From: a virus
DNA length: 26,787 nt
Virus record (IMG/VR): IMGVR_UViG_3300035670_001083
Coordinates: 1-26,787 of that record
Reading direction: 5' to 3' (one strand)
Below are positions 3,119-7,136 of the stretch, one piece after another. The first letter of the stretch is position 1. The number at the start of each line of letters is the position of its first letter. The notes beneath the pieces were generated by a model. The model saw only the letters and a program-made list of their open reading frames with translations. It ran no database searches and was not told the DNA's origin. The translations under genes were made by a program, and so were the position numbers.

Positions 3119-3388
3119 ATGGCCTATGAAAAGAGAAACAATGAAGGAACCCTGTTTCCCAACAACAAGGGTGACAATCCCAAGAGACCCGATTACAAAG
3201 GTGCATTAGTCTTACCTGATGGCCATGAGGTGGAGTTGGTGGCCTGGCTCAAGACTGGCAAGAACTCGGGTAAAGAGTTTCTGAGTTTGAAGATTGGGAA
3301 TTACACCAGCCCCCAACAGGGATCTGCGCCTCCCAAGGCTAGGGCCAAGACCTTTGATGACATTCAGGACAATGAGGTGCCGTTTTAG
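3119..3388 (+). CDS. Small SSB-like/DUF736-like protein
   Basis: An 89-residue protein with a very strong ribosome binding site (AAAGGAGGTG, 5 bases before ATG). The middle (about residues 22-62: PDYKGALVLPDG, VELVAWLKTGKNSGKEFLSL) has alternating strands and the K-x-G-K-x-F-L-S-L pattern of DUF736-like proteins, thought to be small single-strand DNA-binding or OB-fold proteins. The C-terminus is an acidic tail ending in hydrophobic residues, FDDIQDNEVPF, much like the DDDIPF tip that bacterial SSB uses to recruit partners. Likely coats single-stranded phage DNA. It overlaps the next gene by one base, so it belongs to the packaging operon. Function is a fair inference, not certain. Confidence 0.55.
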   Translation: MAYEKRNNEGTLFPNNKGDNPKRPDYKGALVLPDGHEVELVAWLKTGKNSGKEFLSLKIGNYTSPQQGSAPPKARAKTFDDIQDNEVPF

Positions 3389-3831
3389 TGGCTAGACAGC
3401 AGTCGAGGATGGCCAACCAGATCCCCAGTCTTAATGGCTGGGGTGGGGTTCGGGCTATTCAAAAGAGGCTGGAACGGTCAGACACACTGGTGCAGAACCG
3501 GGAAGCAGTGGCCTATACGCTGCTTTGCATGGCCAACACCAAGATCACAGACATTATGAGCTGGGATTCCCAGGGTAATGTGCAGATTAAAGCCAGTGAA
3601 GACATCCCTGAACACGCTCTGCAGGCTATTAAAAACATCAAGCAGCGCACAGACAAGGATGGTAACAGTTACTTGGACATTGAGCTGCACGACAAGATCG
3701 GGGTGCTAAGGCTATTGGCTAAGGCCTCGGGTCTGCTGGATAACCCGGATGATGGTTCTGACAAGCCTAGTGTTATTGGTATCAATGTACAAGCACCAGA
3801 AACAATAGAAGCGGAGATAAAAGATGCCTAA
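3388..3831 (+). CDS. terS: Terminase small subunit
   Basis: A 147-residue protein starting with GTG 3388, overlapping the previous stop; ATG 3409 is an alternative. It recognises phage DNA and hands it to the large subunit. The N-terminal half is helical and basic (VRAIQKRLERSDTLVQ). The middle has the strand pair and helix seen in this group, NVQIKASEDIPEHALQAIKN, then NSYLDIELHDKIGVLRLLAK with the K-I-x-x-L-x-x-L-A-K-x-x-G-L-L pattern common near the end of phage small terminases. The acidic C-terminus is expected to contact the portal or the large subunit. Location two genes before the large terminase supports the call. Confidence 0.7.
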   Translation: MARQQSRMANQIPSLNGWGGVRAIQKRLERSDTLVQNREAVAYTLLCMANTKITDIMSWDSQGNVQIKASEDIPEHALQAIKNIKQRTDKDGNSYLDIELHDKIGVLRLLAKASGLLDNPDDGSDKPSVIGINVQAPETIEAEIKDA

Positions 3832-4036
3832 TTGGGCCGTAGGGTTTGCAATGGGAATACTGGTCTGCCTGGCGTATGACAGGCTCACAGATGCCCCGGT
3901 GATTGTGAAGCAGCGGATTACACCCACAGACATTATTGACAGCTACAACCGTGGGCGCACGGATGCCCTGAAGACCAACCCTGTCTCTATGGAGCTGGAG
4001 CAGTCATGCCTGGAAATATGGACAAACAAACAGTGA
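3824..4036 (+). CDS. Small single-span membrane protein
   Basis: A 70-residue protein overlapping the small terminase stop by 8 bases. Residues 4-18 (WAVGFAMGILVCLAY) form one hydrophobic segment at the N-terminus, followed by a soluble tail (PTDIIDSYNRGRTDALKT). That topology is typical of small phage membrane proteins, including spanin or holin-like ones, but no family match is recognised and it stands away from any lysis gene. It may be an inner-membrane anchor of unknown purpose. Confidence 0.6.
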   Translation: MPNWAVGFAMGILVCLAYDRLTDAPVIVKQRITPTDIIDSYNRGRTDALKTNPVSMELEQSCLEIWTNKQ

Positions 4037-4239
4037 ACCTGAAACAAGTCGGTGGTGACCACTACACCAGGCTCGACATCCAGCCCTGGGATGCCATGGA
4101 GTGCTGGCTTACCAAAGAAGAGTTCAAAGGATTCTTAAAGGGCAATGTCATTAAGTACATGGCCAGGGCCAAGAACCCCAAGCAGGACTACTTGAAAGCC
4201 CAGCATTACTTAGAGAAGTTGAACAGCCTTGAAGACTAA
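4006..4239 (+). CDS. DUF3310 family protein
   Basis: A 77-residue protein; ATG 4006 overlaps the upstream gene, and ATG 4018 is a possible later start. The sequence is a clear DUF3310 match: VGGDHYTRLDIQPWDAM, then FKGFLKGNVIKYMARAKNP and LKAQHYLEKLN. This family is widespread in phages and is sometimes annotated as SaV-like or as a nucleotide-kinase-like protein, but its role is not settled. The start codon of the large terminase lies inside its last codons. Confidence 0.8.
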   Translation: MPGNMDKQTVNLKQVGGDHYTRLDIQPWDAMECWLTKEEFKGFLKGNVIKYMARAKNPKQDYLKAQHYLEKLNSLED

Positions 4240-6736
4240 GGAGCAGTCCACCAAGACCATTGGCGCAGGCCTGAACCTGGATTTCAGAAGCAGCCCGATT
4301 GTCTACAACTTCCTGCAAAGCAATGCCTTTGTCAGGGGTATTCGAGGGCCAGTAGGCTCTGGCAAGTCCTACGCCTGCGCTGCCGAGATTATGTTAAGAG
4401 CAGTCAAGCAGGCACCTAGTCCCATTGATGGGATCAAGTACACCCGGTTTGCCATTGTGCGTAACAGCTACCCCATGCTGAAGACCACCACAATCAAGAC
4501 CTGGCTCGACTTATTCCCAGAGGCCACCTTTGGCCCACTGCTCTGGACTCCACCCATTACCCACCATATAAAGCTGCCTAGCCGAGGTGATGCTGCAGGT
4601 ATTGACTGTGAAGTCATATTCCTGGCTCTCGACCAGCCCAAGGATGTCCGAAAGCTACTTTCCCTGGAATTAACAGGTGCCTGGGTGAATGAGGCCAGAG
4701 AGCTGCCAAAGGCAGTCATTGATGGCCTTACACATCGAGTTGGCCGGTATCCCACTAAGCGTGACGGTGGCGCAACCTGGCACGGCATCTGGATGGACAC
4801 CAACCCCATGGACGATGACCATTGGTGGTTCAGGATGGCCGAGAAGGAAAAGATGTCGGGTGCCTATGCCTGGAAGTTCTTTAAGCAGCCAGGCGGCATT
4901 GTGCCTGTTGATCCTGCTGATCTGCCTGAAAACCCCGAGGCACAAGACCATATCTTCTCTGCTGGCAAGTGGTGGAAGCTGAATGAGAAGGCCGAGAACA
5001 TTGGCAACCTACCGGCAGGCTACTACCAGCAGATGTTACTGGGTAAGAATCTCGACTGGATTAGGTGCTATGCAGCAGGCGAGTACACTTATGTGCAAGA
5101 GGGCAGACCCGTCTGGCCAGAGTATGACGACAGCATCATGTCGGGTGAAGTAGAATACGATCCTGCCCTACCCATTCAGGTGGGCGTTGACTTTGGTTTG
5201 ACCCCGGCTGCCATCATTGGCCAGAAGCTACCCAATGGCCGGTGGCAAGTCCTGCACGAGATTGTGACTTTCGATATGGGCCTGGAGCGGTTTGGCCAAC
5301 AGCTCCTAGCGGAATTGAACACCCGCTACCCAAAGGCTCAAATACTGGTCTGGGGTGACCCAGCCGGTATGGCCAGAGATGCCATCTACGAGGTGACAGC
5401 GTTTGACCACCTCAGAACCCTTGGGCTGCGTGCCCAGCCTACCCACAGCAATGACTTCAAGGTCAGGCGTGAAGCTGCAGCCATGCCCATGCAACGACTG
5501 ATCGCTGGCAAGCCCGGTCTCATTGTGAATAGAGAATGCAAGCTCCTCCGCAAGTCACTTGCCGGCGGTTATCATTTTAAGCGAATTGCCATTGGAGCGG
5601 GGCAAGAAAGATTCCGAGATGCCCCGAATAAAAATGAACACTCCCACTGCTTTGTCGCTGGCACACTTGTTAGCACTCCATTGGGCCAGCAACCCATTGA
5701 ATCAATCGAGGTCGGAGATTATGTCAACACCCCTGCTGGATCACGACTGGTCACGGCCACCATGTCTAGGCAAACCAATGAACTAATAGAGCTGACCTTT
5801 AACAATGGTGCTGTCCTAGTCTGCACAAAAGATCACCCATTTATAACCAATGATGGTGTATGTATTGCAGATGCGTTAAACTACTCTCACTTATTCTTTA
5901 GTGAGGAAACATCATGCAAGCCAAGAACCCGGTACAGCAATTTAATGGAGTTCGGTTTTATTGCAAACCCAATGGGTACTACAAAGCGGATTGGAAAAAA
6001 CATCGTGGCGTTTATATGCACCGATTTGTTTGGGAAAGCATTAAAGGCCCGATCCCACCTGGCTTCCATATCCACCACAAAGATGGAGACCGAAGAAACA
6101 ACGCCATTGAGAACCTGGAGCTTATCAGTCATTCAGAACACTCTCGACTGCATTATGCCGAGAGAAAAGCAACTGACCCCAATTGGTGGCTTAATGGTGC
6201 AGAGCAGCGACAGGCCGGGGCAAAGCAGTGGCATCAGTCCGATGAAGGCCGAGCCTGGCACAGTAAGCACGGCAAAAAGAGCTGGAAGGATCGAGAGATA
6301 CTTTCAAGGAACTGTGACCATTGCGGTGTTGAATACCAATACTTGGCTGGATCGCTTAAAAATGGCATTGGGTTTTGCAGCAAAAACTGTGTGTCGGCTG
6401 CCAGGCGCAAGGCCGGGGTCGATAACATCCAAAGATCATGCGTTATGTGCGGATCAATCTTCTCTGTCAACCGATACCGCAAAACAAAAACCTGTAGTGC
6501 GACTTGCAAGAAAAAGGTACTTTCAGAGTCACGCAAGAGTCTACGATCTAACAGTGGATGACCAGCACCAGTTCTACGCTAACGGCATTCTTGTCCACAA
6601 TTGCGGGGATGCCTTTGGATATCTCTTGCTTGGTGGTGGGGAACATCGCAGGCTAACCAAGACTCCAATCGGTGCGGGTGGCCAGCCCATTTTCCAGGCC
6701 AATGCCATGACTGATTTCGATGTCTTTGCTAATTGA
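4229..6736 (+). CDS. terL: Terminase large subunit interrupted by an intein
   Basis: An 835-residue frame; removing the 318-residue intein leaves 517 residues, a normal size. The ATPase pumps DNA into the prohead and the nuclease cuts concatemers. Walker A is GPVGSGKS at residues 40-47; Walker B ends in GAWVNEARE with Glu155 as likely catalytic acid. Nuclease acids are Asp321 (VGVDFGLTP), Asp377 (VWGDPAGMARD) and Asp794 (CGDAFGY). The intein runs from Cys474 to Asn791, two residues before Asp794, so the unspliced protein should lack a functional nuclease centre. The start is TTG 4229 inside the end of the DUF3310 gene; no better start exists before the conserved region. The spliced junction would read NEHSH-CGDAFGY. 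Confidence 0.9.
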   Translation: MKTKEQSTKTIGAGLNLDFRSSPIVYNFLQSNAFVRGIRGPVGSGKSYACAAEIMLRAVKQAPSPIDGIKYTRFAIVRNSYPMLKTTTIKTWLDLFPEATFGPLLWTPPITHHIKLPSRGDAAGIDCEVIFLALDQPKDVRKLLSLELTGAWVNEARELPKAVIDGLTHRVGRYPTKRDGGATWHGIWMDTNPMDDDHWWFRMAEKEKMSGAYAWKFFKQPGGIVPVDPADLPENPEAQDHIFSAGKWWKLNEKAENIGNLPAGYYQQMLLGKNLDWIRCYAAGEYTYVQEGRPVWPEYDDSIMSGEVEYDPALPIQVGVDFGLTPAAIIGQKLPNGRWQVLHEIVTFDMGLERFGQQLLAELNTRYPKAQILVWGDPAGMARDAIYEVTAFDHLRTLGLRAQPTHSNDFKVRREAAAMPMQRLIAGKPGLIVNRECKLLRKSLAGGYHFKRIAIGAGQERFRDAPNKNEHSHCFVAGTLVSTPLGQQPIESIEVGDYVNTPAGSRLVTATMSRQTNELIELTFNNGAVLVCTKDHPFITNDGVCIADALNYSHLFFSEETSCKPRTRYSNLMEFGFIANPMGTTKRIGKNIVAFICTDLFGKALKARSHLASISTTKMETEETTPLRTWSLSVIQNTLDCIMPREKQLTPIGGLMVQSSDRPGQSSGISPMKAEPGTVSTAKRAGRIERYFQGTVTIAVLNTNTWLDRLKMALGFAAKTVCRLPGARPGSITSKDHALCADQSSLSTDTAKQKPVVRLARKRYFQSHARVYDLTVDDQHQFYANGILVHNCGDAFGYLLLGGGEHRRLTKTPIGAGGQPIFQANAMTDFDVFAN
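5903..5908 (+). promoter_or_regulatory. Ribosome binding site of the nested HNH gene
   Basis: GAGGAA with a 5-base spacer to ATG 5914, inside the intein coding sequence. An in-frame TGA (5902-5904) closes the HNH frame just upstream. The endonuclease therefore has its own initiation signal and does not read on from the terminase N-terminus without a frameshift. Confidence 0.65.
5914..6561 (+). CDS. HNH homing endonuclease nested out of frame within the intein
   Basis: A 215-residue protein. The HNH core at residues about 36-81 reads VYMHRFVWE, then IHHKDGDRRNNAIENLEL and ISHSEHSRLH; His54/His55, Asn63 and His76 are the expected metal and catalytic positions (HNH_3-like). Two zinc-binding modules follow: Cys134-x2-Cys137 with Cys155-x3-Cys159, and Cys176-x2-Cys179 with Cys194-x3-Cys198; these would bind DNA. 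The enzyme would cut intein-free terminase genes to spread the element. Its last codons overlap intein block F. No inactivating change is visible. It lies one frame away from the host terminase, so the two proteins share about 650 bases. Confidence 0.9.
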   Translation: MQAKNPVQQFNGVRFYCKPNGYYKADWKKHRGVYMHRFVWESIKGPIPPGFHIHHKDGDRRNNAIENLELISHSEHSRLHYAERKATDPNWWLNGAEQRQAGAKQWHQSDEGRAWHSKHGKKSWKDREILSRNCDHCGVEYQYLAGSLKNGIGFCSKNCVSAARRKAGVDNIQRSCVMCGSIFSVNRYRKTKTCSATCKKKVLSESRKSLRSNSG

Positions 6737-7136
6737 TTTCCAGCCAGAACACATCCCACTGATCGGTGACCCAACCCCGATTGCGGTTGCCCACCACCTT
6801 GCCGAGCATAGCCAGGCAAGCCTTTCCCTGATCAAAGACGATAAATACCTGGCTGCCTTTGGCCTCTATGCCTTGCACCCAACTGCTGCCCAGGCATGGA
6901 TGCTGGTTAACCCTGATTATCGCCACACTTACGCAAAAACGATATTGAGGCACGCCCAAGAAGAATTAGAGCGATGGCAGATATCTGAGGGTTTCAATCG
7001 AGTTCAAATAACGATAGAATTTGTTAATGCCGGTTTTGTTCGGTGGTCAAAGCTTTTAGGATTTGAGATGGAAGGCTTGATGCGATGTTATGGACAGGAT
7101 GGGCAGGATCACTTCTTAATGGCTAGGATTCGATAG
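6720..7136 (+). CDS. GNAT-like phage protein (T7 gp13-like position)
   Basis: A 138-residue protein whose ATG overlaps the terminase end by 17 bases. It has an acetyltransferase-like order: LSLIKDDKYLAAFGLYAL, AQAWMLVNPDYRHTYAKTIL, and VQITIEFVNAGFVRWSKLLGFEMEGLMRCYG. The last part, N-x-x-x-x-x-W-x-x-x-L-G-F-E-x-E-G, is typical of GNAT proteins. Similar proteins occur beside terminase or portal genes in T7-like phages, where gp13 is an early-assembly internal protein needed for normal virions rather than a known enzyme. The acetyl-CoA pyrophosphate loop is not obvious. A structural or assembly role is more likely than catalysis. Confidence 0.65.
   Translation: MSLLIDFQPEHIPLIGDPTPIAVAHHLAEHSQASLSLIKDDKYLAAFGLYALHPTAAQAWMLVNPDYRHTYAKTILRHAQEELERWQISEGFNRVQITIEFVNAGFVRWSKLLGFEMEGLMRCYGQDGQDHFLMARIR

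Follow-up and report, generated by a model that had tools for sequence, protein, structure and literature searches.

The window, a 26,787-nt stretch of viral DNA (IMG/VR virus record IMGVR_UViG_3300035670_001083), contains a terL gene that is a single open frame of 835 codons on the plus strand (4229-6736). The frame begins at a putative TTG start at 4229, where a sister gene (L142) has an ATG at the matching place (MKTKEQS), and spans both halves of an intein (Table 1). The excised 318-aa intein matches Pfam Intein_splicing (6e-10), PT-HINT and Hint_2 as well as the NCBIfam model intein_Cterm (TIGR01443; 5e-8), and its block G reads H317-N318 followed by Cys+1 (HN/C). In particular, C1, T60, H63 and N318 are invariant across 33 aligned inteins. 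The host gene is not fractured, as no split into separate N and C ORFs was found in the window. An earlier note, made from the letters alone, had placed all splicing blocks in the TerL frame of one contiguous intein, and the HMM and Pfam matches within the single 835-aa ORF bear this out. The gene is followed by an ORF (6720-7136) that overlaps the 3′ end of terL by 17 nt.

Table 1. Features of the terL locus, with positions in the window
Feature	Position	Strand	Evidence and remarks
TerL N-extein (large terminase, TTG start)	4229..5647	+	PHROG terminase large subunit 8e-20; Pfam Terminase_3
Intein in TerL frame	5648..6601	+	318 aa, Cys1 to Asn318, Cys+1; TerL residues 474-791
N-terminal splicing blocks A + B	5648..5860	+	C1; T60-K-D-H63 (TxxH); HMM E 8e-26
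Shine-Dalgarno-like GAGGA of HNH gene	5903..5907	+	6 nt upstream of ATG 5914
HNH endonuclease gene	5914..6561	+	215 aa, different frame from TerL; Pfam HNH_3 8e-19; PHROG HNH endonuclease 2e-39
Segment absent from sister mini-intein L142	5915..6480	+	blastn blocks
HNH_3 catalytic module	6010..6147	+	HIHHKDGDRRNN; Pfam HNH_3
First zinc module	6313..6390	+	C134/C137/C155/C159; invariant in 18-25 aligned relatives
Second zinc module	6439..6507	+	C176/C179/C194/C198; >90% conserved
C-terminal splicing blocks F + G	6536..6601	+	VYDL..HQFYANGILVHN; HMM E 7e-13
TerL C-extein	6602..6736	+	begins CGDAFGY...

A complete HNH endonuclease gene with two Cys4 quartets occupies the interior of the intein in another frame. 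The HNH frame is closed by a TGA (5902-5904) just 5′ of its ATG, its stop codon is contained in the C-terminal splicing block (the block-C match at 6536-6601), and its residues H54, H55 and N63 are invariant in aligned relatives. The description given in the earlier note (an HNH protein with two zinc modules, its own Shine-Dalgarno site and ATG, a TGA directly upstream, and an end within a splicing motif) thus holds throughout. When the two frames were searched separately with profiles, the HNH frame matched HNH_3, and the TerL-frame linker of the intein had no endonuclease match in Pfam. Two open stretches on the minus strand (5887-6132 and 6234-6536) also overlie the overlap; they have no Pfam match and are probably by-products of a stop-poor composition.

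Structure predictions assign different folds to the two frames. AlphaFold2, run with an intein-frame alignment, models residues 1-89 and 280-319 with a pLDDT of about 93-96, and intein residues 90-277 mostly with a pLDDT below 45. This TerL-frame linker, predicted to be disordered, coincides with the HNH-coding interval. The best PDB matches of the intein model are mini- and split inteins, led by the gp41-1 intein (6QAZ, E 9e-8). Over the same DNA, the HNH frame is modelled with a mean pLDDT of 92; its profile has a single match among solved structures, to the homing endonuclease I-HmuI of the HNH type (1U3E, E 3e-4), an entry that Foldseek also matches weakly to the HNH model (E 0.035).

Further, intein-free and HNH-deleted alleles of this gene exist. 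The intein-free TerL alleles L062 and L063, which belong to the lineage of the window gene and have about 86% nucleotide identity, read ..NEHSHCGDAFGY.. straight through, joining NEHSH directly to CGDAFGY and presenting an exact empty site. Together, Cys1, TxxH, HN/C, the modelled HINT fold and this empty site confirm the insert as an intein, whose splicing is predicted. The sister gene L142 carries an intein with 80% amino acid identity to that of the window and without the HNH gene. The two are homologous up to the HNH ATG and again from 6481 onward, within the HNH 3′ end, and L142 retains the HNH-frame tail RKTKTCGMACKKKVLSEYRKSLRSNGG, up to its stop, with cysteines conserved in the family. 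Because this tail is retained, L142 is read as an in-frame deletion of HNH and not as an ancestral mini-intein; such a deletion is consistent with a homing cycle, where the endonuclease degenerates while the intein is still obliged to splice.

Relatives of the HNH gene and their architectures

IMG/VR, GTDB genome contigs and annotated phage records were surveyed with the HNH protein alone as the query, so that no intein was required, and splicing blocks were sought afterwards around each match. With redundancy included, 128 of 198 HNH ORFs lie out of frame within an ORF bearing intein blocks. After removal of near-copies, 103 loci are nested in this way, 94 in the register of the window (the main register) and 9 in a second register, in which HNH is shifted the opposite way (L022-L035, L194, L198, L214, L217, L222 and L235). 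The non-redundant remainder consists of 6 loci that are probably nested but have unrecognised N blocks, 17 fractured loci, where the N and C intein halves are in separate ORFs with HNH in between, 29 loci without a detectable intein, and one in-frame case (CL131).

The nested relatives come from metagenomic viruses, phage genomes, and bacterial and archaeal proviruses, and their host genes are mostly terL: all 10 spanning ORFs that were checked are terminase large subunits, from several families. The nested inteins are positioned just 5′ of a conserved (C/S)xDAxRY-like segment. For example, the same layout is found in L001, which is 92% identical to the window, in the complete haloarchaeal plasmid pGSL19_54.9, and in the records of Tetrasphaera phage TJE1, Rhodobacteraceae phage LS06-2018-MD07 and Acinetobacter phage Highwayman, where the terminase alone is annotated at the nested locus.

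Relatives of this HNH in the fractured form occur in Lactobacillus phage CL2, Vibrio phage 1.238.A and L037. In phage CL2 (L155:455-2771), the annotated terL ends in the N intein half and is followed by HNH and then by a C-intein ORF; the annotated terminase is probably a split-intein precursor. In the terL region of Vibrio phage 1.238.A (L152:200-3928), an in-frame LAGLIDADG intein is followed further on by a fractured intein, between whose halves lies an unannotated HNH gene; annotation treats the terminal piece as a hedgehog/hint protein of its own. Free-standing HNH relatives adjoin terL in the cultured phages PAE1, SN1, EauM-23, PhiSTP1 and BP10, which suggests that the endonuclease recognises terL DNA.

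The family is deeply divergent, with a median terminal branch of 0.63 in the HNH tree. The best topology contains at least 26 changes of architecture, a number that falls when weakly supported branches are discounted. The distances of HNH, intein and extein are all correlated (Mantel r 0.27-0.47), a pattern that fits vertical descent and joint transfer alike.

Constraint on the two reading frames

To quantify the openness of the intein frame, a null model held each HNH protein fixed, resampled its synonymous codons from its own usage, and counted the resulting intein-frame stops. Across the 103 nested genes, 0 stops are observed versus 347 expected (0 versus 257.7 in the main register, n = 94; 0 versus 89.4, or about 10 per gene, in the second, n = 9), where the expected counts are not fully independent because the nested loci share ancestry. 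The controls are at expectation, with 196 stops versus 190.5 in free-standing HNH genes and 122 versus 111.2 in fractured ones (pooled, 318 versus 302), and so is the third frame of the nested genes (1749 versus 1714). The intein frame is therefore kept open by selection. The reading of the locus as a dual-coding intein, put forward in the earlier note from this one sequence, thereby gains a family of about 103 non-redundant relatives; intein-frame stops, which that note had named as evidence against it, are absent from the nested relatives and present in the fractured ones.

For the window alone, the probability of finding no stop is between 0.0005 (extein codon usage) and 0.007 (own usage). 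The frame is indeed open, but the earlier estimate of 3 in 100,000 overstated the improbability by one to two orders of magnitude, and the family-level evidence is far stronger than this single-locus probability. With the HNH protein held fixed, the main register is naturally stop-poor, with about 2.7 expected stops per HNH gene versus about 18 in the other frame. The dominance of the main register, 94 to 9, may arise because the HNH family makes few stops there.

Substitutions were compared in both frames for eight close pairs, including the window and L001 (94% nt identity). Those that are silent in HNH and change the intein are about 2-fold enriched over expectation, and those that change both frames are depleted; HNH is therefore a conserved protein under purifying selection. 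Changes silent in both frames are too few (about 11 over the eight pairs) to judge amino acid constraint on the overprinted linker, and the contrast between the HNH-changing classes is confounded by codon position. This comparison, suggested in the earlier note, supports conservation of HNH, and no amino acid constraint beyond openness was found in the linker, which appears to be constrained mainly to stay open. Overall, the layout, its recurrence and the selection on both frames are well supported.

Decoding, mobility and alternative explanations

Shine-Dalgarno matches of at least 4 nt precede 54% of the first ATGs of nested HNH genes, versus 20% of other ATGs in the same ORFs; for matches of at least 5 nt, the proportions are 34% and 5%. 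The starts of free-standing relatives are similar (49% and 39%, respectively), and in nested genes the HNH frame has a stop at a median of 12 nt upstream of the first ATG. This enrichment and the close upstream stop make internal initiation the most likely route to the HNH protein, although initiation within a translated ORF could be weak. For the 46% of nested starts without a match of at least 4 nt, another start mechanism may operate in some lineages. A leaderless or -10 promoter was considered, since TGATATAAT was seen by eye near the HNH starts of several loci, and was set aside; no promoter-like site, sigma-70-like promoters ahead of the HNH gene included, was found in window positions 5500-6700.

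The architecture, its recurrence, the stop depletion, the HNH-frame conservation, the fold assignments, and the intein-free and HNH-deleted alleles are established directly. From them we infer splicing, HNH translation, the cutting site and homing, and the locus is very probably a mobile composite element whose terL mRNA is decoded in two frames, yielding an intein and a separate HNH protein. The TerL frame would produce an 835-aa precursor, from which the intein would remove itself to leave an intact 517-aa terminase. Splicing would use the N-terminal 89 and the C-terminal ~40 intein residues, with the ~190 between them serving as a disordered read-through linker. Ribosomes would begin separately at the internal Shine-Dalgarno site and ATG 5914 to make the 215-aa HNH/zinc endonuclease, which would most likely cut intein-free terL at or near NEHSH/CGD, and repair of the break would copy intein and endonuclease jointly. 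Selection would act on the HNH frame to preserve its protein sequence and on the intein frame mainly to exclude stops, since any stop there would abolish the essential terminase.

Other explanations were weighed against this composite element. Ribosomes might slip by programmed frameshifting from the TerL into the HNH frame and make an N-intein-HNH fusion instead of a free HNH protein. In the main register, HNH is indeed read in the -1 frame, and a canonical -1 heptamer (A_AAA_AAC) lies in the correct phase at 5995 and is conserved in L001. However, a slip there would cost the first ~27 HNH residues of the window, a heptamer precedes the domain in only 21 of 92 main-register loci (29 sites, where phase predicts 18.7), and for the second register +1 slippage would be needed, beyond the reach of -1 heptamers. 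The enrichment of Shine-Dalgarno sites and ATGs at the HNH start also speaks against frameshifting, which is regarded as unlikely. Marginally less probable still is a dead overlap, in which a mini-intein would carry HNH as a degenerating passenger, with the intein frame open by chance or recent insertion. The chance of an open frame at a single locus is non-negligible, and one sister intein, L142, lacks HNH; yet variation is absent or nearly so at the catalytic and zinc positions, purifying selection on the HNH frame is evident in close pairs, and 103 divergent nested lineages are all free of stops.

That the insert leaves at the RNA level, as an ORF-containing group I or group II intron, is highly improbable. 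Phage HNH endonucleases are often intron-encoded, and the nearest solved relative, I-HmuI, is one of them; against this, positions 4200-6800 have no Rfam match at E 0.5, conservation of the splicing blocks is at the protein level, and every nested relative keeps the frame open. Finally, paired indels from assembly or sequencing could imitate an out-of-frame domain and mask a normal in-frame bifunctional intein. This concern, raised in the earlier note, carries next to no weight: it is excluded by family-wide recurrence, as the layout is the same in L001, in the three named phage records and in the complete haloarchaeal plasmid, and two distinct registers recur.

Traces of the proposed homing were sought at the insertion site. 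No rise of identity to the intein-free alleles was found at the junction, as a co-conversion tract beside the insertion would leave. An I-TevI-like operator or invasion scar is not supported, as the similarity between the terL insertion site and the DNA 5′ of the HNH ATG is barely above that for mismatched loci (mean scores 7.30 and 6.92, with p 0.014 by permutation; the mean rank is 0.53 and that of the window 0.71); the DALNY/DALRY resemblance is probably an ordinary intein segment after block B. The free-standing relatives beside terL also suggest that HNH may have entered terL inteins through collaborative homing, as has been proposed for introns (PMC2988022).

Relation to known elements

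Inteins normally carry their endonuclease in frame, as an HNH or LAGLIDADG domain; unlike such bifunctional inteins, that of the window has an intein-frame linker predicted to be disordered. Fractured genes, in which a free-standing endonuclease gene lies between split intein halves, were reportedly described by Dassa et al. (2009). The likeness to these, pointed out in the earlier note, extends to actual relatives (CL2, Vibrio phage 1.238.A and L037): the endonuclease is its own gene between the N and C intein parts, but in the window the intein frame runs uninterrupted through it. The dCTP deaminase intein of Aphanizomenon phage CL131 (L153), whose splicing was demonstrated in E. coli (PMC6293099), is likewise a phage-gene intein with an HNH_3 endonuclease between its N and C splicing blocks. 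Its endonuclease is in the intein frame, as part of the same polypeptide, whereas the HNH of the window is a separate ORF with its own start.

The ShiLan domain, described in mycobacteriophage methylases (Arsenault et al. 2025, PMC11855218; see also Applejack, PMC12613952), is an inserted HNH in a different reading frame and shows a homing-like distribution (PMC11855218). As in the window, an HNH with zinc modules occupies the second frame of an insertion whose host frame stays open. ShiLan is without splicing blocks, its authors expect the insertion to stay in the protein, and its host methylase is dispensable (PMC11855218); in contrast, the carrier in the window has intein splicing motifs and its host gene is a terminase. 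ShiLan also has no recognisable ribosome binding site, whereas the window HNH has GAGGA. The elements of I-TevI (a T4 intron endonuclease) and I-HmuI similarly place an endonuclease ORF inside a self-removing element; there, unlike in the window, removal is at the RNA level from a non-coding intron and thus puts no constraint on a second coding frame. In the open full-text literature, which largely excludes subscription papers and preprints, no description of an endonuclease lying out of frame in a contiguous intein was found, so priority is uncertain.

It seems reasonably likely that these terminase inteins form a large, unrecognised class of mobile elements with a stably overprinted endonuclease, which arose or changed register at least twice, interconverts with free-standing and fractured forms, and in which the splicing partner has only to keep its frame open under selection. 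An advantage of overprinting may be that the endonuclease dose is uncoupled from splicing, yet the endonuclease is tied to an essential gene. It would be a third route to a bifunctional mobile intein, next to in-frame fusion and gene fracture: a single DNA segment would encode an insert that excises itself from the protein and also what probably drives its spread. The presence of all three forms in one endonuclease family opens the assembly and breakdown of mobile inteins to stepwise study. Moreover, the nested loci are a large natural set of overlapping genes, in which constraint falls on the protein in the HNH frame and mainly on the avoidance of stops in the other. The records of TJE1, LS06-2018-MD07 and Highwayman indicate that homing endonucleases are being missed in annotation.

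Two terL genes in the survey contain additional insertions. That of L142 has a second intein-like insertion (L142:2832-3700) in the ATPase P-loop (GPVG/CVAP...HHN/SGKS), where no convincing hidden endonuclease ORF was found in any forward frame. That of L013 contains two separate inteins (1953-2846 and 3222-4148), each with an out-of-frame HNH gene.
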